Source: Pseudomonadota bacterium (GTDB taxonomy: Bacteria; Pseudomonadota; Gammaproteobacteria; Acidiferrobacterales; Acidiferrobacteraceae). From it: DNA of 41,642 nt. The DNA lies in NCBI GenBank assembly GCA_021784755.1, contig JAJYHM010000005.1:1-41642 (forward strand), in the 5' to 3' direction. This document shows positions 22,865-36,861 of the stretch, in pieces (position 1 is the first letter of the stretch; the number at the start of each line of letters is the position of its first letter). Below the pieces are notes generated by a model. The model saw only the letters and a program-made list of their open reading frames with translations. It was not told where the DNA came from and did no database searches. The position numbers and the translations under genes were made by a program.

Positions 22865-24082
22865 ATGATCTTTCCTTTGTTCCTAGCACTTTACGGCTTG
22901 GCCCACGTCTTCATCTGGCACGTCCTGGTGGTTGGCTTCGCGCTTTCGCCACCCTTGTCCGCCGTTCTCGGTGGAGTGCTTCTCGGTCTTGGACTTACCC
23001 CGTTTTTCGCGCGTCGCATGGACCGGCGGCAGTTCAAGCATATCGGACGAGTCTTGTCGTGGATCGGCTACACCTGGGCTGGTCTCGTACTGCTGTTCAC
23101 CATGGCACGGCTTGCGACTGACCTCATGCTTGGAGGCTGGTTTGTTCTTATGGGCGCGCCTTCCCATGCTGCAGCTCGCGTCGCGTCGTTGATATCGAGC
23201 CTGAGCTTGACCGGCCTATTGGCGATCTACGCGTTTTTCGAGAGATCGCGCATTCAGGTAGAGACGGTTAACGTCCCGACCACAAAGGACATCGGCCCCT
23301 CCACAGTCCTTTGCATAGCCCAGATATCGGATGTTCATATCGGCACGATGAATGGGCGTCGTCGCATCCAGACGCTCCTAAAGAGGCTTCAAGAGCATGA
23401 ACCGGATGTCGTGGTGTCGACCGGTGACTTGATCGACTCGCACGCGGGACTCGCGGTACCCGTCACCGAGGCCTTGGCGGCCTTTAAGCCGCGCTTTGGT
23501 AAGTTTGCCGTGATAGGTAATCACGAGTGTTACGCGGGTCTTGAGTCAGCGCTGCCCTTCATGGAACGCTGCGGCTTCGTCGTGCTGCGCAACACTGCAG
23601 CCGTCGTCCCTGGGCTGCGGTTCGTGGGCGTCGACGATCCGGCGGCGAGTAAGCCAGAGGAGGCGGCGCGCTGCGAGGCGCGGATCCTGCGCGGAGTCTC
23701 GGACGATACCTTTACGGTTCTGCTCAAGCACCGTCCCGATGTGTTGCCCGGTTCCGAGGCTCGCTTCGATCTGCAGCTTTCGGGACATACCCACAAGGGA
23801 CAGATCTTCCCCCTTGGTTTCCTTACCCGCTTGTACTATCCGGCGCATGCCGGGCTGTTTCGCTTGGCGCACGCCTCCTATCTCTACGTGAGTCGTGGCA
23901 CTGGCGCCTGGGGGCCGCCGTTCCGCTTACTTGCGCCACCCGAGATCACGCTCTTTAGGGTGGGACCAGGCCTCCCCGATCCAGGGGGGCAGACCCTCTC
24001 CACTTTGCCTTCCGCCGAGGTGATCGAAGGGCGGGCATCGTCGGCGTCGACTGTGACTGCGTTTAGCGACAGGCCTTCCTAG
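22865..24082 (+). CDS. Membrane-anchored metallophosphoesterase
   Basis: Protein of 405 residues. Four membrane helices occupy about 1-145, then a calcineurin-like phosphoesterase domain: QISDVHIG (D-x-H), STGDLID (GD), VIGNHECY (GNHE/D), VLLKHRPD and LSGHTHKGQ (GH-x-H). All five metal-binding blocks are intact. The architecture matches YkuE/YaeI-type proteins, which act at the membrane on phospholipid-like or cell-wall substrates. The start 22865 has GAGGTG upstream. The last ~50 residues are a low-complexity tail. The 3' end overlaps the convergent kinase gene by four bases. Confidence 0.88.
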   Translation: MIFPLFLALYGLAHVFIWHVLVVGFALSPPLSAVLGGVLLGLGLTPFFARRMDRRQFKHIGRVLSWIGYTWAGLVLLFTMARLATDLMLGGWFVLMGAPSHAAARVASLISSLSLTGLLAIYAFFERSRIQVETVNVPTTKDIGPSTVLCIAQISDVHIGTMNGRRRIQTLLKRLQEHEPDVVVSTGDLIDSHAGLAVPVTEALAAFKPRFGKFAVIGNHECYAGLESALPFMERCGFVVLRNTAAVVPGLRFVGVDDPAASKPEEAARCEARILRGVSDDTFTVLLKHRPDVLPGSEARFDLQLSGHTHKGQIFPLGFLTRLYYPAHAGLFRLAHASYLYVSRGTGAWGPPFRLLAPPEITLFRVGPGLPDPGGQTLSTLPSAEVIEGRASSASTVTAFSDRPS

Positions 24083-25293
24083 GTCGCATGCCGCGCGGCC
24101 TTGGGTTGCTCGAGGACCGTAGTGTCCTGGGCAGGCTGCGGTTTGATCGGCACGCGTATCCAGAATGTTGCGCCCCCACTCCGGTTGTTGTGGGCCCCGA
24201 TATCGCCTTGGTGGAGCGCTATCAGTTCCTTGCAGATAGCAAGGCCCAAGCCCGTGCTTTGCTCGTTTCCTGTGGGCTTGTTGCTGAGCGATTGATAAGG
24301 TTGGAAGAGGTGGGTCTGATCCTGGGGTGACAGTCCAGGCCCTTCGTCGGCGACCTCGCACACGATCTGCTCGTTATCGGCTGATGTGGAGACCACAACG
24401 TGCGTTTTGGGCGGGCTAAACTTTATGGCGTTCCCGATCAGGTTGTCCAGTACCTGCAGGAGCCGTAGTTCGTCGGCGAGGATATGTGGGATACCGGGGG
24501 AGAACTTGAGGTCGAGTTCTATGCCTTTGCCGTGCGCGTAGCCTAAGTTGTGGGCCACCGCTTGTCGGACGATGGCACCGAAGTCGGTGGATTGTTTTTG
24601 GAGGTGGACGCGGCCGGCGCGAATGGCGCCCATGTCGAGCAGTTCACCTATGATCTGCTGCATGTATTTGCCGGTATCGATAAGAAGATCGAGGGCCGAT
24701 TGATCGTCCGCCGACATCGGTTGCCCCGTTGTGGCCGTTAGCCGAATCTGGCTTGCCACATCGAGCATGAGCATGATGGGTTTTTTGAGATCGTGGCTAG
24801 CGGTCCGGAGGAAGTGGTCGTTTACGTCCTTTAGGGCCTTCAAGGTGATCTGTGTGCGCACGCGGGCGCGCACCGTACTGGCATCAAAGGGTTTCACGAC
24901 ATAGTCATTGGCGCCGTCCCGTAAGGCTGTAACAATGTTCACGGTATCGGACGACCCGGAGATGATAATGATCGGCAGATTCAGGGGCGAGCGCTCGGCG
25001 CGGATGCTATTGAGCAGGCCTAGGCCGTCGACGGGCCCAGGCAGACGCAGATCAAGCAGTATGAGGTCAAAATCCGCGTGCGCGAGCTTTTCCATCGCTT
25101 CGGCGGCGTCGCAGGCAAGCTGAACCGCATAGCCGTCGCGTTTTAAGCCGATCGCAAGCCCGGCGCGCAGGCCGTCATCGTCGTCCACCACCAGTATCCT
25201 GCGTCGCGGCGCATCGTCGTGTGTGATGCCGCCGTCGACGACATCGCTCATCGTCTGTGGTCCCGCATGATTGTCCCCTTTGTTGTCAAGCAT
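24079..25293 (-). CDS. Receiver-histidine kinase hybrid (REC-HisKA-HATPase)
   Basis: Soluble protein of 404 residues. An N-terminal receiver (about 32-150) has the acidic pocket in VVDDDD, phospho-acceptor Asp81 in LLDLRLPG and Lys in VKPFD. It is followed by HisKA with His167 in TASHDLKKP and an ATPase domain (NLIGNAIKFS, DEGPGL, STGLGLAI). The order receiver-then-kinase is typical of proteins that take phosphate from another kinase and then modulate a further partner. There is no membrane or PAS segment. Start 25293 gives the longest form; ATG 25251 is equally possible, since neither has a strong ribosome site. Confidence 0.87.
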   Translation of the reverse strand: MLDNKGDNHAGPQTMSDVVDGGITHDDAPRRRILVVDDDDGLRAGLAIGLKRDGYAVQLACDAAEAMEKLAHADFDLILLDLRLPGPVDGLGLLNSIRAERSPLNLPIIIISGSSDTVNIVTALRDGANDYVVKPFDASTVRARVRTQITLKALKDVNDHFLRTASHDLKKPIMLMLDVASQIRLTATTGQPMSADDQSALDLLIDTGKYMQQIIGELLDMGAIRAGRVHLQKQSTDFGAIVRQAVAHNLGYAHGKGIELDLKFSPGIPHILADELRLLQVLDNLIGNAIKFSPPKTHVVVSTSADNEQIVCEVADEGPGLSPQDQTHLFQPYQSLSNKPTGNEQSTGLGLAICKELIALHQGDIGAHNNRSGGATFWIRVPIKPQPAQDTTVLEQPKAARHAT

Positions 25294-25601: not shown

Positions 25602-25617
25602 TGGCACGCGGCTTGCT
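25602..25617 (+). promoter_or_regulatory. Sigma-54 (-24/-12) promoter of the kdp operon
   Basis: TGGCACG (25602-25608), four bases, then TTGCT (25613-25617): an exact match to the sigma-54 consensus TGGCACG-N4-TTGC(A/T), with GG and GC 12 bases apart. Transcription would begin near 25628. The reading direction is toward kdp and no other plus-strand gene intervenes. An inverted repeat GAGGCCCC (25519-25526)/GGGGCCTC (25552-25559) lies upstream and could be an activator site. A sigma-54-type regulator is encoded at the end of the same cluster. Confidence 0.75.
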
Positions 25618-25943: not shown

Positions 25944-26051
25944 ATGTTTTGGGTTATGGGAGTGTCGTTTATCGCGGTCTATGGGCTCTTTGCGGGCCTC
26001 GTGCGCTTCTCGAGCGTGGTCATTGGGAGTCGTGAAGGGGGAAATAAGTGA
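25944..26051 (+). CDS. Small membrane protein preceding kdpF
   Basis: Protein of 35 residues with one hydrophobic helix (about 3-26) and a basic, polar C-terminus. ATG 25944 has an excellent GAGGAG ribosome site seven bases upstream, the best in the operon, and its stop overlaps the GTG of kdpF by four bases. It lies just after the sigma-54 promoter. It is not KdpF itself, which follows; it may be an extra subunit or assembly factor of the pump, or a leader cistron that sets kdpF translation. Family not recognised. Confidence 0.65.
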   Translation: MFWVMGVSFIAVYGLFAGLVRFSSVVIGSREGGNK

Positions 26052-26128
26052 CGGATCTATTGCTCGCGCTTGTCGCCGCGGTGGCAGTCTATTTGGTCTA
26101 CGCGATCTTGTACCCGGAGCGTTTCTGA
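26048..26128 (+). CDS. kdpF: Potassium-transporting ATPase subunit KdpF
   Basis: Peptide of 26 residues with a single helix (DLLLALVAAVAVYLVYAIL) and a PERF end, the size and form of KdpF, which stabilises the KdpABC complex in the inner membrane. It starts with GTG overlapping the preceding stop (GTGA) and ends three bases before the kdpA ATG. Confidence 0.8.
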   Translation: MTDLLLALVAAVAVYLVYAILYPERF

Positions 26129-26131
26129 GTG

Positions 26132-27871
26132 ATGAGTGCGAACGCGTTTTGGCAAATCGCTATTGAGCTGCTGCTGGCGGGAGCGATCAGCGTTCCTTTT
26201 GGGCGCTATCTGGCGCACGTCTTTCAGGAGCAGAAGACCCTGTTCGATCCGGTCCTCAATCCGGTCGACCGACTTATCTATCGCCTCATAGGGCGGGATG
26301 CCGTGAAGGAGGGGATGGACTGGAAGGGCTACGCGGTCCATATGCTTCTCACCAATCTCCTTATGGGTCTCTTGATCTATGTGATCCTGTCTTTTCAGGC
26401 CCATTTGCCGTGGAACCCCCTGAAATTCCCCGACGTGCAACCCTTTCTCGCTTTCAATACGGCGGCGAGCTTCGTCACGAATACCAACTGGCAGAATTAT
26501 GGCGGCGAGTCGACTCTTTCGCTTTTTAGCCAGATGGCCGCCATAACCTTTCCCATGTTTATTTCGGCGGCAACGGGCTTGGTCATGGCGATCGCGTTTT
26601 TTCGCGCACTTACCCCGAATCGTGATAAAGGCCCCATTCTCGGCAACTTCTACCACGATTTCGTGCGGGTCCTCACGCGCGTGTTTCTCCTCCCATGCCT
26701 TTTTATTACACCGATCCTGGTTTGGCAGGGATCTCCCGAGACGCTCACGGGCATGGTCACGTCGCACCTCATTCAAGGTGGCGTGCAGCACATACCCCTA
26801 GGTCCGGTGGCGGACCTCGAGGTCATAAAACATTTGGGCACGAATGGGGGCGGATTCTTCAATGCGAATTCGGCGCACCCCTTCGAGAACCCGACGCCTT
26901 TGTCGAACGTCATCGAGACCCTGCTTATGATGGTAGGCCCCATGGCACTGGTCGTGGCCTTCGGGCGCATTGTGGGGAACCCGAAGCTGGCCCGCGTGAT
27001 CTACACGGTCATGGCGTCGATGCTGGTAGTCGCGGTGTTCACGGCCGTGATTGCCGAGCAACGCGGCACGCCGCTTTTGGCCCACGCGGGCTTGATGCAG
27101 CACGCGAGCGCCGGCCAGATGGGCGGCAATATGGTCGGTAAGGAGGTGCGGTTCGGCATCACCCAGAGCGCCTTGTTCGATACGGTGAGCACCGCTTCCG
27201 CGACTGGTGCGGTCAATTCCATGCTCGACAGCTATACGCCCGCAGGTGGCATGGTGTCGCTCGTGCAAATGATGCTGAATTGCGTATTCGGCGGCCAGGG
27301 TGTCGGGATGCTCAATTTCCTGATGTACGGCATTTTTGCTGTTTTCATTGCCGGCCTCATGGTAGGGCGCACACCGGAATTCCTCGGAAAGAAGATTGAG
27401 AAACGGGAAATCGTGCTGGCGTCTCTTGCGCTCTTGGTCCACCCCCTCATCATTTTGGTCCCGACCGCGTGGTCCTTGATGGCTCCATATGGAGTGAGCT
27501 CACTCGGGAACGCCGGATCACACGGTCTGTCCGAAGTGCTCTACGCCTTTACCTCGGCCGCCGCCAATAACGGCTCGGCCTTTGCGGGGCTAAACGGTGA
27601 CACCCCTTGGTATAATGTCGCTTTGGCCGTTGTCATTCTGGTGGGGCGCTACGCCTCGATCATTTTTATGCTGGCGCTCGGCGGCTCCTTGGCCGCGAAA
27701 CCACGCGTGCTGGAAACAGTAGGGACCTTGAAGACGGATACGGCGCTTTTCGGCGGGTTTTGGTTCGCCACCATCATAGTTGTGGGGGCGCTGACTTTCT
27801 TCCCTGGCCTCGTGTTGGGGCCCATCGCCGAATTCTATGCGCACCATGCATCGATTGGGGCGATACGATGA
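26132..27871 (+). CDS. kdpA: Potassium-transporting ATPase subunit KdpA
   Basis: Potassium-binding channel-like subunit, 579 residues, with about ten membrane helices. The four filter loops are visible in order: TNTNWQ, TNGGGFFNANSAHPFENP, SATGAVNSM and NNGSAFAGL. It selects K+ and passes it to KdpB for ATP-driven uptake. ATG 26132 was chosen; GTG 26129 directly before it is an alternative. The gene overlaps kdpB by four bases (ATGA). Confidence 0.97.
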   Translation: MSANAFWQIAIELLLAGAISVPFGRYLAHVFQEQKTLFDPVLNPVDRLIYRLIGRDAVKEGMDWKGYAVHMLLTNLLMGLLIYVILSFQAHLPWNPLKFPDVQPFLAFNTAASFVTNTNWQNYGGESTLSLFSQMAAITFPMFISAATGLVMAIAFFRALTPNRDKGPILGNFYHDFVRVLTRVFLLPCLFITPILVWQGSPETLTGMVTSHLIQGGVQHIPLGPVADLEVIKHLGTNGGGFFNANSAHPFENPTPLSNVIETLLMMVGPMALVVAFGRIVGNPKLARVIYTVMASMLVVAVFTAVIAEQRGTPLLAHAGLMQHASAGQMGGNMVGKEVRFGITQSALFDTVSTASATGAVNSMLDSYTPAGGMVSLVQMMLNCVFGGQGVGMLNFLMYGIFAVFIAGLMVGRTPEFLGKKIEKREIVLASLALLVHPLIILVPTAWSLMAPYGVSSLGNAGSHGLSEVLYAFTSAAANNGSAFAGLNGDTPWYNVALAVVILVGRYASIIFMLALGGSLAAKPRVLETVGTLKTDTALFGGFWFATIIVVGALTFFPGLVLGPIAEFYAHHASIGAIR

Positions 27872-29937
27872 GCGCGGCGGCGGCAGGCGCGCCCGGGCAT
27901 ATCGAGGGCGGGCGCAAGAGGACGCGGGAGCTCGCTGGGCAGGCGATCATCGACTCCTTCAAAAAATTCAGTCCACGGGTCCAGGTGCGCAACCCCGTCA
28001 TGTTCATCGTCTGGTTATCGATGTTCGTGACTTTGGCGTTGACCTTCGATCCGGACCTTTTCGGAAAGACGCAGGTGACTGCTGCCTATAACGGCTTTGT
28101 GACAGCCATCCTGTTCTTTACGGTATGGTTCGCGAACTTCGCCGAGGCCTTTGCGGAGGGCAGAGGCAAGGCGCAGGCCGATGCGCTGCGCCAAACCAAG
28201 ACGGACGCGACAGCACGGCGCATCGCCGACGATGGCACTCTTCAGGTGGTTGCGGCAGGCATGCTCCGTAAGGGGGATCGCGTGCGTGTCGAACGTGGCG
28301 AGATCATTCCGACGGATGGTGAGATCCTGGAAGGCATTGCGTCGGTCGATGAGTCGGCAATAACGGGGGAATCAGCTCCAGTCTTGAAGGAGCCGGGCAC
28401 GGATATGATGTCGACCGTCACCGGCGGCACGCGCATCCTTTCGGACTGGCTGGTTTTCAAGGTCTCCGCCGACCCGGGGCACACCTTCCTTGATCGCATG
28501 ATTCAGCTCGTGGAGGGTGCGCGGCGCCAAAAGACACCCAACGAGATTGCCCTGACTGTGCTGCTTGCGGTCCTGAGCCTGATATTCGTGATCGTGGTGG
28601 CTACTTTGAAGCCGCTCGCTTCTTTTCTTCATATCCATATCGATGTGGCGACCCTGATTGCGCTTCTCGTTGCGTTGATGCCTACGACCATCGGGGCACT
28701 CTTGTCCGCCATTGGCATCGCCGGCATTGATCGCGCTACGCGGTTCAATGTTTTGGCGATGTCCGGGCGGGCTGTGGAGGCGGCGGGCGACGTACAGACG
28801 CTTATCTTGGACAAGACGGGCACTATCACTATGGGCAACCGCCAGGCCACTGAGTTCGTGCCCTTGCCAGGGTACAGCGAGGACGATGTCGCAGCGGCTG
28901 CCATGGCCGCCTCCTGGTATGACTCCACTCCCGAGGGGCGGTCCATCGTGGCGCTGGCGGTGGCGCGGGGTGCCAAACGCGATCCTATTTGGGAGCAGGC
29001 GCAGGGCGTGGAATTTACCGCCGAGACCCGCATGAGCGGAACGAACCTGCCAGACGGTCGCGAGGCGCGTAAGGGTGCAGTCGCGGCGGTCGCGCGGTAC
29101 GTGCAGGAGGGCTTCAAGACCACGGCTCCGCGGGAGCTGAAGGAGGCGGCTGATCGAGTGGCAAAAAAGGGCGCGACCCCGCTCGCGCTCGCGATGGACG
29201 GGGCACTGATTGGCGTGATCGGTCTATCGGATGTCTTGAAGCCTGGTATGCGTGAGCGCTTCGCGCATATGCGCAGCCTCGGAATCAAGACAATCATGGT
29301 CACGGGCGACAACCCGATTACGGCGCGCGTGATCGCCGAACAAGCCGGCGTCGATGATTTCGTAGCTGAGGCTAAGCCCGAGGACAAGATCCGCGTCATT
29401 CGTTTGGAGCAGGGGCAGGGGCGGCTTGTGGCTATGACCGGTGACGGCACGAACGATGCGCCGGCGCTCGCTCAGGCGGATGTCGGCCTTGCCATGCACT
29501 CGGGGACGGTGGCCGCGAAGGAGGCTGCCAACATGATCGATCTGGACTCCGATCCGACCAAGCTCATCGATGTCGTGGCGATTGGTAAGCAGCTTCTCAT
29601 CACACGCGGGGCGCTTACCACCTTCTCTATCGCAAACGACGTGGCCAAATATTTTGCGATGTTGCCGGCCATGTTCATGTTGGCATTGCCAGGGGTGTCG
29701 GCGCTCAATATCATGCATCTTGCAACCCCTGAGAGCGCGGTCTTGTCGGCGCTCATATTCAACGCCGCAATCATTCCGATCTTGATCCCCCTGGCGTTGC
29801 GCGGGGTGCGTTTTCAGCCGACGACTGCCAATCACATGTTGGCGCGTAACGTTCTGTTCTACGGTTTTGGGGGCCTCATCGTGCCCTTTATTGGCATCAA
29901 GGCCATAGATCTCGTTCTAAGTCCGTTTTTGCGTTAA
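27868..29937 (+). CDS. kdpB: Potassium-transporting ATPase ATP-binding subunit KdpB
   Basis: P-type ATPase of 689 residues. It shows the TGES actuator motif, the phosphorylated Asp315 in DKTGTIT, the nucleotide-binding KGAV region, TGDNPIT and the hinge TGDGTNDAPAL. About seven membrane helices are present. It hydrolyses ATP to drive K+ through KdpA. The start ATG 27868 overlaps the kdpA stop. Confidence 0.98.
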   Translation: MSAAAAGAPGHIEGGRKRTRELAGQAIIDSFKKFSPRVQVRNPVMFIVWLSMFVTLALTFDPDLFGKTQVTAAYNGFVTAILFFTVWFANFAEAFAEGRGKAQADALRQTKTDATARRIADDGTLQVVAAGMLRKGDRVRVERGEIIPTDGEILEGIASVDESAITGESAPVLKEPGTDMMSTVTGGTRILSDWLVFKVSADPGHTFLDRMIQLVEGARRQKTPNEIALTVLLAVLSLIFVIVVATLKPLASFLHIHIDVATLIALLVALMPTTIGALLSAIGIAGIDRATRFNVLAMSGRAVEAAGDVQTLILDKTGTITMGNRQATEFVPLPGYSEDDVAAAAMAASWYDSTPEGRSIVALAVARGAKRDPIWEQAQGVEFTAETRMSGTNLPDGREARKGAVAAVARYVQEGFKTTAPRELKEAADRVAKKGATPLALAMDGALIGVIGLSDVLKPGMRERFAHMRSLGIKTIMVTGDNPITARVIAEQAGVDDFVAEAKPEDKIRVIRLEQGQGRLVAMTGDGTNDAPALAQADVGLAMHSGTVAAKEAANMIDLDSDPTKLIDVVAIGKQLLITRGALTTFSIANDVAKYFAMLPAMFMLALPGVSALNIMHLATPESAVLSALIFNAAIIPILIPLALRGVRFQPTTANHMLARNVLFYGFGGLIVPFIGIKAIDLVLSPFLR

Positions 29938-29952: not shown

Positions 29953-30549
29953 CTGTCGCGTACCTTTGGGACTGCTCTACGTTTTACCCTCTTGACGTGG
30001 GTGATGTTTGGGCTCGGCTATCCCTTGCTCGAGATCGGTATCAACCAACTTACATTTCCGGGACCCGCCAACGGCAGTCTCGTGCGGCAAGACGGGCGGA
30101 TCGTGGGTTCCCGTCTGATCGAGCAGCGATTCCGGGGAGGCCGGTGGTTCCATGGAAGGCCGTCGGCCGTCCACATGGATCCGCGTTCGTCCGGCGCCTC
30201 TAATCTCGGCCCGTTGAGTCGCAGGCTTGCGCGTCATCTCGCCATGCGGCGCAATCGTCTTCTGGCCCACCACCCGACGCTTGCGGGGCAACGGTTGCCG
30301 GCGGATATGATCACGAGTTCGGGGTCCGGGCTCGACCCGGACATCACCCCCGCCAATGCCTATCTTCAGGCTCGCTGGGTCGCTCGCAAGCGCGGCCTGC
30401 CCCTAGCCTCGGTGCGCCGCCTCGTGGCGCGGCATGAACGTAGGCCCTGGCTCGGGCTGTTTGGACAGGCGCGCGTGAATGTCCTGGCGCTGAATCTGGG
30501 ACTTCAGCGACTCGCGAATCACAATCGCGATGACGGGATGGGACACTGA
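29953..30549 (+). CDS. kdpC: Potassium-transporting ATPase subunit KdpC, non-standard start
   Basis: KdpC, the periplasm-facing subunit: one N-terminal helix (TLLTWVMFGLGYPLLEIGI), FPGPANGSLV, GSRLIEQRF, TSSGSGLDPDITPANAYLQARWVA and VNVLALN, all typical. The frame has no ATG or GTG. CTG 29953 follows GAGGAGG (29942-29948) by four bases and keeps the full helix and the usual length (198 residues). TTG 29992 lacks a ribosome site and cuts into the helix. CTG initiation is therefore preferred but unproven; a sequencing error near 29950 is the other explanation. Confidence 0.85.
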   Translation: MSRTFGTALRFTLLTWVMFGLGYPLLEIGINQLTFPGPANGSLVRQDGRIVGSRLIEQRFRGGRWFHGRPSAVHMDPRSSGASNLGPLSRRLARHLAMRRNRLLAHHPTLAGQRLPADMITSSGSGLDPDITPANAYLQARWVARKRGLPLASVRRLVARHERRPWLGLFGQARVNVLALNLGLQRLANHNRDDGMGH

Positions 30550-31820
30550 GAGCCCGGGGCATTTCGACCAAGAATTGGTGGATGCCGGAATAGCCTATCC
30601 ACGCATCCCCCTCCTAGGCGAGGACCACGCGAGCGTTGCACTAGAAAGGGATCAGACGGAGAGCCTGTTTTTCTGAGTACGATAGGTTCTCGGAAATCGC
30701 TATTACTCTACAAAGCGGAGTAATATCAACGACCGATGCAGATCGGCGGCCGCTTGCGCTGTTACCCGATCTCCGCGTAAGCGCGAATCTTGCAGCGGCG
30801 GATCGGTCGTCAACGGTGCCCCGATAACGCCCGGATGCGGGAATATCAGTATTTTCGTCGCTTTGTGCGGACGGCCTTGCTGTGCGCAGGCCAATCGGGT
30901 CCCATCGATCGACAGTGCCGCCCCTTCAGGATCGAACTCACCGCCCTGGCGGCCGTGAGGGGCTGAGCGCTATGCTGAGCAAGGGCGTGTGATTCTGGAA
31001 ACTGACCTGCCAAACCTTGCGCCGCATCGCTCCACCTGCGTCATTAGGGTGGCTAGGGGATATAATCGAACCATGCTGAACCGCACGGCACCTGTTGCCT
31101 GTACCCCAACACCGCCCAAGCGGAGCGGAAGGGGTCGATCGTCGTGTCCCGAGGCATTGCAACCGTCGCGAAGCCGTGGCACCTCAAAAATCAGCTCGCG
31201 GATTTGAAGCGGCTCGGGCAGGGCGGTCTCCCGTAAGATGCGCGAGACCCAGCAAACGAGCGGCCAACAACGGGGTGTTCCGGCCTCCGCCGCTTTGCGC
31301 GATGACAGCCAACACTGGGGCAGGCCGCGTTGGGACTTTTTGCAGTAGATCTGTGCCACGCCAGCGGGTGGGATGGATCCTGGTACGGAGGGGAGCGCCG
31401 ACACCGACGATCCGGCCCACGCAACACCGTCATATGTGTTGGACAATGGCCGGACGGAAAGACCGTCCGTTCCGATCGGCAACACCTATGTCCCCGCTGC
31501 GGTGTCACCTGTGGCGGTGATGACAATGCGACCCTGGTACTATTGCGGTGGATGGAAAGGAGATTGGTCGGCAATGTGGGTATGTGGCCTACGGTTCCGG
31601 CTCTGGGGCCCGTTCGGGGTCGGGGGCAGTGCAGGACCGTGGGGCACTATGGCGGTTGCGTCGAAGCACGAAACTCGCGCCAGACGGCCGTCATGTTGGC
31701 GGGCGCAGTTTATATCGGGTGCGATTAGCAACGCGAAAGGGGGAAGCGTTTCCCTGGACGGGCCGCGAGCCCCAAAAATCCCCGCCCAAGCCAGTAAGGG
31801 CTTGAGCGGTGGGAGGTCTC
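30550..31820. other. Relic-like DNA splitting the kdp cluster
   Basis: 1271 bp between kdpC and kdpD with no intact gene. Three open pieces have protein-like composition but no good starts. A plus-strand frame ends at 30676 (contains FDQELVDAGIAYPRIPLLGE). A minus-strand frame covers 30703-30969 and is listed separately. A 36-codon plus-strand frame at 31238-31348 contains DDSQHWGRPRWDFLQ. None could be assigned. A hairpin CAAGCC/GGCTTG (31787-31804) lies just before the kdpD ribosome site. The promoter of kdpD must be here unless kdpC transcripts read through. Confidence 0.45.
30703..30969 (-). pseudogene. Unrecognised open fragment between kdpC and kdpD
   Basis: 88 codons closed by a stop at both ends, without ATG (only TTG 30894). 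The protein has ordinary composition: EFDPEGAALSIDGTRLACAQ, ATKILIFPHPGVIGAPLT and a helical end DLHRSLILLRFVE. It may be the tail of a former accessory gene inserted between kdpC and kdpD. No family assigned. Confidence 0.3.
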
Positions 31821-32987
31821 ATGGAACCGCAGAGCACTCTGTCCTCATCGGAACAGGATATTCTAAGCACGCTGAAGGAGCGCACGGCGGGCCGCCTTAA
31901 GATTTATATCGGGTCGGCGGCCGGCGTCGGGAAGACCTATCAGATGCTCCTCGAGGCGCGCAGACTACGCGACGAAGGTGTCGATGTGGTGTTGGGTTAC
32001 ATTGAGACGCATGGCCGTGTCGAGACCGCGGGGCTCGTGGGGGATCTTGAAAAAGTCCCCTTGCGGCGCATCCGTTACCAGGACAGATTTTTCGACGAAA
32101 TGAATCTGCCGGCAATCCTTGAGCGTCGGCCGCAGATCGTCATCGTCGATGAGCTTGCGCATTCTAATATTCCGGGGACCGAGCATCCAAAGCGTTATCA
32201 GGATGTGGAGGATATCCTGAAGGCCGGCATTAATGTCATTTCGGCTGTCAACATTCAGCATATCGAGAGCCTGAACCCCTATGTCGAGCGCCTAACCGGC
32301 GTCAAGGTGCGTGAGACCGTCCCGGATCGCATCCTGGCCATAGCAAGCGAGATCATCAATATCGATCTCTCGGTTGAAGACCATAGGGAGCGCCTGCGTC
32401 GCGGCAAGATCTATCCCTCCGAGAAGGTCGAAAGCGCGCTCCGCGGTTTCTTTACCCCGGAGAACCTCGCGGCCATGCGCGAAATGGCATTGCGTGAGGT
32501 GGCGAGCAAGGTCGAATATCAGACTGAGGAGCAACGGCTCTTGCGGGAGGCGGGGCCCCTGCGGCGTCCCGATCGTGTGGTCGTCTGCCTCGGACCTGAC
32601 CATGCCGCGAATGTGGCCCTACTGCGCCGCGGGGCACGGGTTGCCGGCCGTTTGAACGCGGATTGGTTCGCCGTCACGGTCGTGAGACCCGAGCTTGCGC
32701 CAGGAAAGGCCTTGAGTCCGGTCCGGAAGGAGTTTTTGAAGCTCGAGCGCCTGGCGGAGGATCTGGGGGCGCGGTTCAAGGTACTCGAATCGCAGAGCGT
32801 GCTCGACGCCCTCGTGAGTTTCGTGGAGGCCCACGGCATCACGATGGCGATCTTTGGCAAGAACCGACACGTAGGCTGGCGCCTGCGCCTATTCAAGTGG
32901 TTGACGCTCGAGTTCCTGAATCATACGGATGGGGTCGATGTTCAAATCGTCGACACCAAGGAGAGCGAGACGCAGACGCGTCACTAG
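31821..32987 (+). CDS. kdpD: Short KdpD: sensor ATP-binding plus Usp domain, no kinase
   Basis: Protein of 388 residues equal to the N-terminal cytoplasmic part of KdpD. The KdpD domain (about 20-230) has Walker A GSAAGVGKT (31-39), VDELAHSNIPGTEHPKR.QDV and VNIQHIESLN. A universal-stress-protein domain follows (about 250-375; RVVVCLGPD). The four membrane helices, GAF and kinase parts of full KdpD (about 890 residues in E. coli) are absent, and the stop is genuine: the next gene starts eight bases later in a new protein. It probably reports K+ or nucleotide state to the neighbouring kinase. ATG 31821 follows GGGAGG; GTG 31809 is a weaker option. Confidence 0.9.
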   Translation: MEPQSTLSSSEQDILSTLKERTAGRLKIYIGSAAGVGKTYQMLLEARRLRDEGVDVVLGYIETHGRVETAGLVGDLEKVPLRRIRYQDRFFDEMNLPAILERRPQIVIVDELAHSNIPGTEHPKRYQDVEDILKAGINVISAVNIQHIESLNPYVERLTGVKVRETVPDRILAIASEIINIDLSVEDHRERLRRGKIYPSEKVESALRGFFTPENLAAMREMALREVASKVEYQTEEQRLLREAGPLRRPDRVVVCLGPDHAANVALLRRGARVAGRLNADWFAVTVVRPELAPGKALSPVRKEFLKLERLAEDLGARFKVLESQSVLDALVSFVEAHGITMAIFGKNRHVGWRLRLFKWLTLEFLNHTDGVDVQIVDTKESETQTRH

Positions 32988-32995
32988 GATAATTC

Positions 32996-34801
32996 ATGCC
33001 CCGATCACTCAGTAATCGCCTCATTATCGCCATATCGGCGGTTGTTTTGTTTCTCGGCGTCTTGGGTGCCCTCCTTGTCGCCCGTGTGGGTGCACTCGGC
33101 GGTGTCACTCAGCGGATATTGAGGACCAATGCTCATGTCGCCGTCCTGATGAGCACCATGCGGGAGGCCGCTCATGCTTACGCCCTTGCGACCCCCGCGA
33201 CGGGGCGGGCGCGCATAGCGACTCGGTTCGCCGCTTCATCGCAAGGCTTCGGCGACGATACCGAAGGGTTGCATATAGGTCGTGAGCGCGCGCGTGTCTG
33301 GAGCGCATGGAAGGCCTATCGGATCCGTCCCGATGCCGCCCACCTCAAGTCCCTTGATCGTTCTCTGGATAGGCTGAGAGAGGTTACGCGCGCAGCCATA
33401 GGCGAGCGGGAGCATCGCGCGGTCAGTGCGATCAAGGACCTGACGATATTCGCATCGCTCGGGCTTGGCGCGTCGCTGCTTGCCATCCTGATACTCTCCG
33501 TGTGGATGGTGAGGCTCATTTTACGGCCCATGCGCCAGCTGGCACGCAGCATTCATGACTTGAGTCCTGCTGGCACGCACCGCGAGCTCGAGCGCTATGG
33601 GCTCGTGGAGTTCGATGATCTGACGAGAGAGTTCAATGGACTCTTGCGGAGACTTGACAAATACGATCGCGGGAATACCGAAAAGCTGGTCTATGAGAAT
33701 GCAAAGATCGATGCGCTCATAAACTCAATAGACGACGGGCTCGTTCTTTTGGATCGCCAGGGAAAGATTCTCCATGTGAACTTCATGGCCGGTATGTTGC
33801 TGCAGACCGAGCCTGGCGAGCTACTTGGTCGCAATATCAATGATCTGAACATAGCCACGCGGTTCTATATGAATCTTCGCAACGCCCTTATGTCGCTGCG
33901 TCGGGAGGATCAAGACGAGCCGCAGTATAGCCGCAACGAATTTTCGTTAACCATCCGCGGCCGGCTCCATTACTATATCCTGAAGACCGTTCCGTTCCGC
34001 GATAAGGGCCGCAGCATAATAGGGCTAATCGTCGTGTTGCAGGACGTGACGGAGTTGCGGCACGCCGAGCACCAGAGGACGCAGCTATTGGCCACGCTTT
34101 CGCATGAGCTTAAGACGCCACTTACAAGTCTCAGTCTCAGTATCGGTACCCTCTACGAGACCACCCATCAGGACAATTTTTCTGTGCAGGTCCGTCAGCT
34201 TCTGGAAATCGCCAAGGAGGAAGTGGGCCGCTTAACGATGTTAGTGGAGGATCTCCTTGACGTCTCTAGGCCGGACGCCATCCGCGCAAGTATCGATCTG
34301 AAGCCGCTGGAGCTGTGCGAATTCCTGCATCGGCAGGTTCACTCCTTTCGCCTCCAGGCTGAACTCCAGGATGTCGACATGGTAGTGCAGTGTCTCCCGG
34401 AGGTAGCCGTGAACGCCGATCCGATTAAGCTCGGCTGGGTTTTCAATAATTTGCTCTCGAATGCGCTGCGCCACACGCCCTTGCATGGCCAGATTACAGT
34501 GACGGTGTCCAAGCCGAGCGATGATGAGGTCCTGATGGAGGTGGCTGACACCGGACGTGGGATCCCGCCCGAGGAGTTGCCGAGCATATTCGAATGGTTT
34601 ACGCAAGGGACCGGGGAGCACCAAGGATCCGCAGGTATGGGGCTCGCAATCGTTCGCGAGATGGTGGAGGCGCATGGTGGGCGCATAACAGTGGCGTCCA
34701 AGGTGAACGAGGGGACCGTGTTTCGCATCAGCCTTCCAAGATACATGACGGCCGCCGACCTGCCATTGCAGCCCGTCGTGTCGCCACCGACGCAAGGGTG
34801 A
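32996..34801 (+). CDS. HAMP-PAS sensor histidine kinase, KdpD partner
   Basis: Membrane kinase of 601 residues. Helices lie at about 8-30 and 147-175 with a periplasmic helical segment between, then HAMP (about 175-230), PAS (about 235-355), HisKA with His370 in LSHELKTPL, and an ATPase domain (NNLLSNALRHT, DTGRGIP, GMGLAIVREM). The layout resembles KinB, the kinase of the NtrC-family regulator AlgB. Its place between short kdpD and an NtrC-type regulator suggests it supplies the kinase function missing from that KdpD. ATG 32996 is preceded by GGAT. Confidence 0.88.
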   Translation: MPRSLSNRLIIAISAVVLFLGVLGALLVARVGALGGVTQRILRTNAHVAVLMSTMREAAHAYALATPATGRARIATRFAASSQGFGDDTEGLHIGRERARVWSAWKAYRIRPDAAHLKSLDRSLDRLREVTRAAIGEREHRAVSAIKDLTIFASLGLGASLLAILILSVWMVRLILRPMRQLARSIHDLSPAGTHRELERYGLVEFDDLTREFNGLLRRLDKYDRGNTEKLVYENAKIDALINSIDDGLVLLDRQGKILHVNFMAGMLLQTEPGELLGRNINDLNIATRFYMNLRNALMSLRREDQDEPQYSRNEFSLTIRGRLHYYILKTVPFRDKGRSIIGLIVVLQDVTELRHAEHQRTQLLATLSHELKTPLTSLSLSIGTLYETTHQDNFSVQVRQLLEIAKEEVGRLTMLVEDLLDVSRPDAIRASIDLKPLELCEFLHRQVHSFRLQAELQDVDMVVQCLPEVAVNADPIKLGWVFNNLLSNALRHTPLHGQITVTVSKPSDDEVLMEVADTGRGIPPEELPSIFEWFTQGTGEHQGSAGMGLAIVREMVEAHGGRITVASKVNEGTVFRISLPRYMTAADLPLQPVVSPPTQG

Positions 34802-34805
34802 CTGG

Positions 34806-35978
34806 ATGCCGTCCGTACTCATAGTGGACGATGATCGTAAGATTCGGTTGACGCTCAGCATATTCCTTGAGCGGCGCGGATACCGTGTGCGGGATGTAGC
34901 GTCGGTCAAAGCGGCATTGACCACTTTGCGGGAGTTCCGCGCCGATATCGTCCTGTCGGACTTGAGGATGGAGGGCGAGGGCGGCATCGAGCTCCTGGCT
35001 GCCGTCAAGGCGGATTACCCATCGCTGCCCGTTATTATCATGACGGCGTACGCGAGCGTGGAGAAGGCGGTAGAGGCGATAAAGCGCGGGGCGGCCGACT
35101 TTATCGTAAAGCCCTTTGCTCCGGCCGAGATAGAGCAGATTCTGAGCCGGGCGATCCATATCCGGAGCCTCGAGGTGGAAAACCACAATCTCCGCGTGGC
35201 TTTGGACCAAGAGGACATGCTGACCCGTTCCGAGTCGTTTCGGCGGACATTGTCCATGGCCGAACGTTTTGCGCGCAGTGAAGCGACCGTGCTCGTGTTA
35301 GGGGAGAGCGGCACAGGCAAGAGTCTGATCGCGCGCCGGATCCACGCCGCAAGCAGCCGAAGCAAGGGGCCCTTCGTTGAAGTGAACTGCGCAAGCCTTT
35401 CGCCGAACTTGCTCGAAAGCGAACTCTTCGGGCACTGCAAAGGCGCCTTCACGGGGGCGATCAAGGACAAGGTGGGCCGACTCGAAGCTGCGGACGGCGG
35501 AACACTATTTTTGGACGAGGTGAGTGAATTGCCGGCTGAAGGGCAGGCGAAGCTCCTCCGCTTCCTGCAAGATAAGGTTTTTGAGCGAGTGGGTGAGCTT
35601 AAGACGCGCGCCGTAGACACCCGCGTCATTGCCGCGACCAACCGTGATTTGCGCGATCTCGTTGCTGGAGAGGGGTTTCGGGAAGATCTCTACTATAGGC
35701 TCAACGTCGCTGAGATACTCATGCCGCCTCTCCGGTCGCGCCCGGAGGATATCCCTATCCTTGTAGAGCGATTCGTGGCGCAGGCGGCGGCTCGCAACGG
35801 CCTTTCGTCGATTCCAGATATGGAGAATGAGGTAAAGACCTATCTTGCCCGTTACAATTGGCCCGGTAACGTTCGTGAGCTTCAGAACGTTATTGAAAGG
35901 TGTGTGATTTTGGCGGGCCCTGGACGCATAAGTGTGGAACATTTGCCGGATCGTTTGTCGACATATCCCGCGTCCTAG
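34806..35978 (+). CDS. NtrC-family response regulator lacking the DNA-binding domain
   Basis: Response regulator of 390 residues. Receiver (about 3-120) with phospho-acceptor Asp52 in LSDLRM and Lys in VKPFAP; AAA+ sigma-54 activation domain (about 140-375) with Walker A GESGTGKS, the sigma-54-contact loop GAFTGA (213-218), Walker B GGTLFLDEV, and WPGNVRELQN. The protein stops soon after, at EHLPDRLSTYPAS; the Fis-type helix-turn-helix of ordinary family members (about 450 residues) is missing. No HTH is encoded in other frames before the next gene at 35995, so this is not a recent frameshift. It could activate sigma-54 polymerase from solution, as FlgR-like proteins do. The likely target is the promoter at 25602-25617. 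Confidence 0.9.
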   Translation: MPSVLIVDDDRKIRLTLSIFLERRGYRVRDVASVKAALTTLREFRADIVLSDLRMEGEGGIELLAAVKADYPSLPVIIMTAYASVEKAVEAIKRGAADFIVKPFAPAEIEQILSRAIHIRSLEVENHNLRVALDQEDMLTRSESFRRTLSMAERFARSEATVLVLGESGTGKSLIARRIHAASSRSKGPFVEVNCASLSPNLLESELFGHCKGAFTGAIKDKVGRLEAADGGTLFLDEVSELPAEGQAKLLRFLQDKVFERVGELKTRAVDTRVIAATNRDLRDLVAGEGFREDLYYRLNVAEILMPPLRSRPEDIPILVERFVAQAAARNGLSSIPDMENEVKTYLARYNWPGNVRELQNVIERCVILAGPGRISVEHLPDRLSTYPAS

Positions 35979-35994: not shown

Positions 35995-36861
35995 GTGGGG
36001 CGTTCTGCCTCGAGGATCCGGTTTTTGAAGACTTTGTGGCTGGTGGTGCTGGCGGCGGGCGTCCTGCAAGGGGCGGCGGCTGCGCAGGAACGGTCCGTAT
36101 GGAGTATTGACGATAATGTGTCAGCCTCTTACCGATTGACGGATTTCCATTACGTAGAACCAAGCGATACATGTGCGCTAGCGGTATGCACAAATGCTCC
36201 GCAAACGGATTACTTCGATCGTGAATATGGATTTATAGACGGTTTCCAGGCCAGCGCATCGGGCCTGCTTTTGCGCGAACGCCTCTATGCCCGCGCGCGC
36301 TACGACTGGACGAGCGGGTACGTGCGCTACCAGGGTTATACGCAGAGCGGTGGGGCTGTGCCAAGCACGGTCTCGGGAGCGGTCATTTCGGACTACAGCG
36401 TGCGGTTGGGCGCGGCGTTCCCTGAGCGTTCTGTCATGGCGGTGCCGTTTTTCGAATACGGGCATCACGCGTGGCGGCGAATGGTGGGGGTGGGTACGGG
36501 ACAGGCCTACGAAGAGGATTACCGGCATGACTACATGGCGCTTGGCGTCCTGGTCCAGATGGCGTTCACAGACGCGCTCGTGGCGAGCATCTATGCCTCG
36601 GCGGGACAAACCATGAATCCCGCGATCAGCGTGCCCGCGTATGATTTCTCTCAAGCGCTCGGAACGGCCGCACTCGTCAAGGCGGGCGCGTCTTTGGATT
36701 TTCGCGTGTCGCGTCGCCTCGGGGTGTACGGCGCCGTCCGCTACACACGATTTTCGTATGGGCAGAGCGTGGCGCAGCCATCGGGCAGTCTTGTTATCAT
36801 GGAGCCCCAGAGTAATACGGTCATGACAAGCTATGAAGGTGGCATGCGGTTTTTCTTCTAG
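35995..36861 (+). CDS. Outer-membrane beta-barrel protein
   Basis: Exported protein of 288 residues beginning with GTG. The signal peptide (hydrophobic core, cleavage near GAAAAQ) is followed by alternating strands (YARARYDW, YSVRLGAAF, GVYGAVRYTRFSYG) and a C-terminal GGMRFFF ending in Phe, as in outer-membrane barrels. No specific family was recognised. It follows the regulator gene by 16 bases and may belong to the same transcript, so it could be an outer-membrane sensor or porin connected with the response. Confidence 0.65.
   Translation: MGRSASRIRFLKTLWLVVLAAGVLQGAAAAQERSVWSIDDNVSASYRLTDFHYVEPSDTCALAVCTNAPQTDYFDREYGFIDGFQASASGLLLRERLYARARYDWTSGYVRYQGYTQSGGAVPSTVSGAVISDYSVRLGAAFPERSVMAVPFFEYGHHAWRRMVGVGTGQAYEEDYRHDYMALGVLVQMAFTDALVASIYASAGQTMNPAISVPAYDFSQALGTAALVKAGASLDFRVSRRLGVYGAVRYTRFSYGQSVAQPSGSLVIMEPQSNTVMTSYEGGMRFFF

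Follow-up and report, generated by a model that had tools for sequence, protein, structure and literature searches.

The subject of this report is a kdp potassium-pump locus in a 41,642-nucleotide stretch of DNA (the window) from a gammaproteobacterium of the family Acidiferrobacteraceae (contig JAJYHM010000005.1 of assembly GCA_021784755.1; contig C14 of a 73-contig, 2.36 Mb genome with a completeness of 85.65%). Its pump genes are followed by a short KdpD protein without the kinase half, a membrane histidine kinase encoded by its own gene, and an NtrC-type response regulator that ends without the C-terminal helix-turn-helix (HTH) domain. We consider it rather probable that these genes form a two-armed split control system for Kdp, with one transcriptional and one post-translational arm. 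A split Kdp layout under sigma-54 control is already published for D. vulgaris, and HTH-less (group 5) sigma-54 activators have also been published; what appears to be new here is the combination of a group 5 activator with kdp. An activator of pump genes that has no HTH raises the question of how an activator finds its target gene. Because gene order links this one to a K+ pump, in a genome with seven other strong activator matches, it offers a natural test of the specificity that enhancer binding supplies.

The regulator (positions 34806 to 35978, plus strand; 390 amino acids) has a receiver domain (PF00072) and a sigma-54 AAA+ domain (PF00158), both above the Pfam cut-offs, and its sequence stops after the AAA+ lid. 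An earlier note, made from the DNA sequence of the window, had rightly called it NtrC-type and had overlooked the missing HTH: the HTH_8 domain was not found in any of the three regulators scanned with Pfam, namely that of the window and those of two relatives. In all 15 aligned regulators, D8, D9, D52, T80, K102, Walker A (G166-S173), Walker B (D237/E238), and the AFTGA motif (214-218) are invariant; the loop reads GAFTGA in 14 of them and EAFTGA in that of G008. Receiver, Walker, and AFTGA residues that are fixed in this way argue for an activator that has been kept intact and is not a wreck. By its architecture, the protein belongs with the group 5 activators, and as such it may act independently of an enhancer. 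The window's genome contains 11 PF00158 matches, eight of them strong (at least 229 bits, the kdp regulator included) and three weak (21-31 bits), and a single copy of rpoN. Among the seven strong siblings, HTH_8 is present in all six that were scanned (all but L006).

The earlier note was right about the positions, the close spacing, and the identity of the three control genes: the open reading frames at 31821-32987, 32996-34801, and 34806-35978, all on the plus strand, are separated by 8 and 4 bases. The kinase (32996-34801; 601 amino acids) is indeed a different membrane protein. According to hydropathy, its hydrophobic spans at about residues 4-38 and 148-179 enclose a loop of about 110 residues. 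PAS, HisKA, and HATPase lie above the Pfam cut-off, HAMP lies slightly below it (23.6 vs 25), and no KdpD domain was found in the Pfam scan, so that the architecture reads transmembrane (TM) span, loop, TM span, HAMP, PAS, HisKA, HATPase. The residue His370 is invariant in 20 aligned sequences.

The same arrangement is conserved in the family, which was sampled by 18 genomes within a 60-genome search, with the loci of 16 relatives fetched. Short KdpD is present in 17 of the 18 genomes, the relatives' copies being 79-95% identical, and was not found in G007, a genome that is 85% complete. The kinase follows KdpD in all 16 relatives' loci and the regulator comes next in 15, the remaining contig stopping inside the kinase; the order kdpABC-kdpD-kinase-regulator is likewise seen in these 15, the contig of G005 beginning inside kdpB. 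The gap between KdpD and the kinase is 8 bases in each of nine relatives measured, and that between the kinase and the regulator is 0-4 bases in eight relatives. In other words, short kdpD does co-occur with this kinase and regulator, and the linkage, whose lack of conservation would by the earlier note have refuted its claim, is conserved. A second kdpABC lies directly upstream in seven of the 16 relatives (41-58% identity per subunit), and these tandem pairs share a single set of short kdpD, kinase, and regulator genes (L144, L146, L147, L148, L149, L150, and L151). The window's genome has one kdpB above the cut-off.

The absence of KdpE, also claimed earlier, is borne out by a search of 16 family genomes, none of which has a KdpE above the NF007820 cut-off, in contrast to G021 and G026, whose KdpD frames are of full length. 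Nor does the locus encode a single KdpD chain of the E. coli type, with a sensor half and a histidine-kinase half; the window's KdpD has 388 residues and matches PF02702 only, and this is the single occurrence of PF02702 in the window's genome, at its completeness of 85.65%. A full-length KdpD/KdpE pair elsewhere in the genome, which the earlier note had named as refuting its claim, was sought as a reserve for the kdp operon and rejected, as none was found in the family genomes searched. The caveat is G015, which has a second KdpD match in a frame of 772 amino acids; no KdpE above the cut-off accompanies it.

The earlier note had placed a sigma-54 promoter at 25602. The -24/-12 element there (TGGCAC-N5-TTGCT, TGGCACGCGGCTTGCT; 25602-25617, plus strand) is an exact match to the motif. 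However, the window contains one motif match at no more than one mismatch, compared with 0.99 in shuffled sequences, and because a near-match is thus expected by chance, the motif alone is no evidence; the case rests on the place of the site, its scoring, and the relatives. With a scoring matrix of approximate values, an equally good site arose once in 200 Markov simulations of the region upstream (836 bases). A stricter pattern applied to the whole genome gave two sites, neither of them at 25602, versus one in the reversed control. Upstream of the first kdp gene, the best site is matched by at most 12 of 200 simulations in 12 of 16 family regions, the window included, and by at most five in 11 of the 16; a high-scoring site occupies the corresponding region of 11 of 15 relatives. 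Where two operons stand in tandem, the site precedes the first of them and no site was found in the seven gaps between operons, so that read-through would be needed. Comparison of five pairs of relatives gave 76-100% identity for the -24/-12 element and 40-60% for the 40 bases preceding it.

The post-translational arm concerns the short KdpD (31821-32987, plus strand; 388 amino acids), which matches PF02702 with 294 bits. The claim that the KdpD sensor and Usp domains stand alone holds for the missing kinase half. Pfam called no Usp domain, and the Usp-like region is drawn from a near-full-length alignment (5-371 of 373) with NF038185, "KdpD-like non-kinase potassium sensor", which at 369 bits is below the cut-off of 550. 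The N-terminal domain of KdpD is described as an atypical serine kinase that phosphorylates KdpB at Ser162 and inhibits the pump, and this domain alone suffices in vitro; KdpD forms that lack the kinase half are the prevailing ones in species with no KdpE, and short forms are read as post-translational brakes (PMC11018627). All 13 aligned sequences retain the Walker A residues (G31-x5-G37-K38), Walker B (D110/E111), and the adenine-site residue R191, and residue 39 is Thr (Ser in G009 and L093), the residues having been matched to the E. coli numbers of that paper by a constant offset. The TGES motif of KdpB is intact, and Ser169 of the frame sits at the place of E. coli Ser162. Short KdpD is therefore best read, probably, as a serine kinase acting on KdpB and not as the K+ sensor of the neighbouring kinase, the role that the earlier note had given it.

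Two candidate triggers of this kinase were tried and rejected. Diadenylate cyclase (PF02457) was not found in any of 12 family genomes, although an unusual synthase is possible, and cyclic di-AMP (c-di-AMP) was set aside; PF02457 is also not found in the seven other genomes of the order that were searched, so that its absence is not special to the family. EIIA-Ntr (PF00359), which was tried as a trigger in trans because KdpD-EIIA fusions exist in other groups, was likewise not found in the 12 family genomes and is present in five of the seven others. Both searches include G004, a single contig that is 99% complete. A short KdpD with neither of the two known cytosolic partners would offer a simple protein in which to test what switches the KdpD serine kinase. 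As for the fusions, mid-length KdpD frames of 556-643 amino acids were found at 21 loci of other groups, and all 11 that were scanned, from many phyla, carry PTS_EIIA_2 at the C-terminus (L057, L060, L068, L069, L075, L077, L078, L083, L096, L106, and L111). As predicted from these domains, such a fusion ties the nitrogen phosphotransferase system (PTS) physically to the KdpD serine kinase; literature searches at the level of titles and abstract starts turned up no paper on it.

The mechanism that we propose would work as follows. The membrane kinase would phosphorylate the receiver of the NtrC-type regulator, with low K+ or a related envelope cue as the presumed signal. The AAA+ ring of the regulator would then open the sigma-54 polymerase complex at the 25602 promoter, and this would turn on kdpFABC together with the regulators. 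Having no DNA-binding domain, the regulator would most likely act from solution, as H. pylori FlgR does, aided by its own induction. When K+ is plentiful, short KdpD would phosphorylate KdpB at Ser169 and shut the pump. The earlier suggestion that this locus is an alternative Kdp control set is supported by the conserved linkage, the sigma-54 site in most relatives, and the lack of a reserve KdpD/KdpE pair.

How, then, might the missing HTH be explained otherwise? A frameshift, an assembly error, or the recent decay of a pseudogene has next to no probability. It is true that the regulator of G012 is split over two frames (L126 10406-11633) by a frameshift or an assembly error, so that breakage does occur in the assemblies of this clade. 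Against this, the regulator is 388-392 amino acids long in the window and in all 14 relatives with an intact gene, over three genera; no HTH continuation was seen by eye in the first 25 residues of the three frames past each stop; and the mean column identity of the alignment is 85%. For the clade, these data refute an artefact. A more serious contender, which we still regard as unlikely, is that the HTH-less regulator works in a mixed ring with an HTH-bearing activator, or that another protein recruits it to the promoter. FleT partners with FleQ. An activator without both outer domains, such as FleT, is among those known (PMC7175178), and the strong siblings with their HTH_8 domains would provide candidate partners; the counterargument is that no conserved upstream site for a partner was seen, in a test that is weak. 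In that test, 11 of the 12 promoter-bearing upstream regions (G014 omitted) had no enhancer dyad in common beyond the level of 15 shuffled sets, and a second attempt at a control with other phyla (best 7.8 in 10 kinase-kdpA gaps and best 11.7 in eight regions upstream of regulators) was unconvincing. The blocks from -200 to -40 are mostly 20-40% identical between relatives, with exceptions of 47% and 57% in G002/G008, and a long block found by gapped comparison in G016/G017 may be the divergent gene. Taken together, these comparisons are only suggestive of the absence of an enhancer upstream of kdp.

The alternative for the other arm is that short KdpD is a cytosolic sensor of K+ (or ATP) that controls the neighbouring kinase in trans and so replaces the fused kinase of KdpD. 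The constant 8-base spacing of the two genes in the window and the nine relatives fits this idea, as does the kinase near KdpD at 39 of 52 short-KdpD loci in other groups, and the D. vulgaris pair has been read as a split kinase (PMC3333781). We nevertheless hold it to be improbable, because the published K+-sensing sites lie in the TM/GAF part of KdpD, which is missing here, because the short KdpD of D. geothermalis is stimulated by c-di-AMP and not by K+ (PMC11018627), and because a mere sensor would have no obvious need of the serine-kinase residues that are retained. The two-armed control system, for its part, has several observations weighing against it. A free activator could misfire or be bypassed among seven other strong activator matches, and in Chlamydia, where the HTH-less CtcC occurs, there is one activator (PMC3162934). 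The pairing of the kinase with the regulator is one of adjacency, and in G009 the two genes are 182 bases apart. G003, G004, and G012 yielded no promoter, and neither did the stretch of 361 bases available in G010. Gapped comparison uncovered a 25-base block common to the window and G006 and a 14-base block in register in G002 and G008 at about -66, and the control of the enhancer test, a set of 15 Bacteroidota loci, failed with only one usable sigma-54 site. On the side of the brake, KdpD has Tyr40 where E. coli has Trp39, and a family without a recognisable diadenylate cyclase is a misfit for the c-di-AMP trigger of the D. geothermalis protein. We would go one step beyond the two-armed system only tentatively: it is possible, if rather doubtful, that the HTH-less activator is kept specific for kdp by means other than DNA contact and that the serine-kinase brake responds to some other, third input, as the K+-sensing domains, the synthesis of c-di-AMP, and EIIA-Ntr are all apparently missing. 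This input may be the neighbouring kinase or the regulator itself, closing one K+ circuit.

Several known systems resemble this locus in part. In D. vulgaris, DVU3334-3339 were described in 2011 as kdpFABC, KdpD and its kinase as split proteins, and a sigma-54 regulator whose target is its own operon (PMC3333781), and DVU3334 is listed among sigma-54 regulators with the target "Potassium uptake" (PMC4641369). By that description, both loci combine kdpFABC and a KdpD/UspA protein with a kinase of its own and a two-component regulator of the sigma-54 type; unlike the regulator of the window with its missing DNA-binding domain, DVU3334 was mapped by its DNA binding and has a binding-site motif. 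Deinococcus also has a KdpD/Usp protein without the kinase half beside the pump genes and a separate two-component pair (PMC11018627, PMC5716572). However, the kinase of D. radiodurans is described as the C-terminal half of KdpD and lies with the regulator in a separate operon (PMC5716572), and the KdpD of D. geothermalis is stimulated by c-di-AMP (PMC11018627), for which the 12 family genomes have no cyclase that was found. The regulator itself is like two group 5 activators, H. pylori FlgR and chlamydial CtcC, which have a receiver and a sigma-54 AAA+ domain and no DNA-binding domain (PMC7175178, PMC3930126, PMC3162934), and H. pylori FlgR activates without binding DNA (PMC3930126). A survey from 2011 put activators without the DNA-binding and/or the signal domain at about 4% of all sigma-54 activators (PMC3162934). 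The genes served by H. pylori FlgR are flagellar and Chlamydia has just one activator, whereas the regulator of the window is linked to a K+ pump and accompanied by its seven strong siblings. No report of an HTH-less kdp regulator was found in literature searches, mostly of titles and abstract starts. In the acidophile Acidihalobacter aeolianus, a sigma-54 regulator is reported in the genomic context of kdp, and the kdp system is described as E. coli-like with KdpD and KdpE (PMC9062700; compared by description). For extreme acidophiles, the influx of K+ has been suggested to contribute to acid resistance (PMC8886135).

Outside the family, 73 loci with short or mid-length KdpD were compared. 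The kinase lies near KdpD in at least 39 of 52 short-KdpD loci and at least 10 of 21 mid-length loci, these counts being lower bounds as many contigs are short. In six of six outside kinases scanned, HAMP, PAS, HisKA, and HATPase were present (PAS below the cut-off in L052), and three of the six have a match to a four-helix-bundle sensor, one of them above the cut-off. All three partners (short or mid-length KdpD, kinase, and sigma-54 regulator) surround kdpABC in 30 of the 73 loci. Gene kits similar to that of the window occur in kdp loci of Bacteroidota, Thermodesulfobacteriota, Aminicenantes, and others, and the kinases scanned there are of the HAMP-PAS type. Unlike the family's regulator, the sigma-54 proteins found within 9.5 kb of kdpD at 31 of the 73 loci all run 44-68 residues longer, and HTH_8 was confirmed in both of the two that were scanned. 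In regulator trees with 25 of these 31 sequences, the family groups with kdp-linked regulators of Myxococcota, Thermodesulfobacteriota, Aminicenantes, Chlorobiota, and two "Proteobacteria" contigs, apart from those of Bacteroidota. The support for this grouping is 99/96 in one tree, with three non-kdp sequences, and 96/93 in the other, with four and with five family rows dropped, the non-kdp sequences standing on long branches. A non-kdp Roseomonas protein is about equally similar to the regulator (48.7% identity), and we make no claim about the origin of the regulator from these trees.

The remaining genes of the locus, all on the plus strand, follow the sigma-54 site in the order microprotein, kdpF, kdpA, kdpB, kdpC, and spacer, before short kdpD, the kinase, the regulator, and an outer-membrane protein. 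The gene for kdpF (26048-26128; 26 amino acids, GTG start) scores 31.3 bits with PF09604 (cut-off 21.2) and 26.3 with TIGR02115, slightly below the cut-off of 26.85. kdpA (26132-27871) matches TIGR00680 with 646 bits, above the cut-off, kdpB (27868-29937) matches TIGR01497 with 1039 bits, and kdpC (29953-30549), whose start codon is uncertain and perhaps CTG, is above the cut-offs of PF02669 and TIGR00681. The spacer between kdpC and kdpD (30550-31820), which splits the operon in the window's genome, is 1271 bases long, the longest among the loci read, as it measures about 530 bases in G006 and fewer than 300 in the rest. It is matched in part, at 78-82%, by four other stretches of the genome (contigs C50, C26, and C13), has no Pfam match in the five frames scanned, and is perhaps decayed inserted DNA. 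A riboswitch in the kdp leader was considered and rejected, because a search of the whole window gave no Rfam match at the gathering thresholds.

Before kdpF lies a predicted membrane microprotein of 35 amino acids (25944-26051), which has a recognisable counterpart (about 33-46 amino acids, start uncertain) in 14 of 14 family loci scanned, the window included. Another, different small membrane protein precedes the first kdpA in all seven tandem clusters; one representative of each type, for the kdpF-side type the copy of the window, had no match in Pfam or NCBIfam. On the minus strand, a divergent receiver-histidine-kinase protein identified by Pfam (24079-25293) flanks the promoter region; 10 of the 16 relatives' loci have a homologue close to kdp, and the protein could feed the kdp circuit. 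On the far side, 16 bases past the regulator, begins a predicted outer-membrane beta-barrel protein (35995-36861, plus strand), a homologue of which follows the regulator in nine of 15 relatives. The best of five AlphaFold2 models has a mean predicted local distance difference test score of 79 (35-66 in the others), with an N-terminal helix and 10 long strands, and its structural matches are generic barrels at 8-10% identity. In both of two Bacteroidota loci inspected, a BBP2 porin lies between kdpC and kdpD (L093 8758-9945 and L115 8838-9920).

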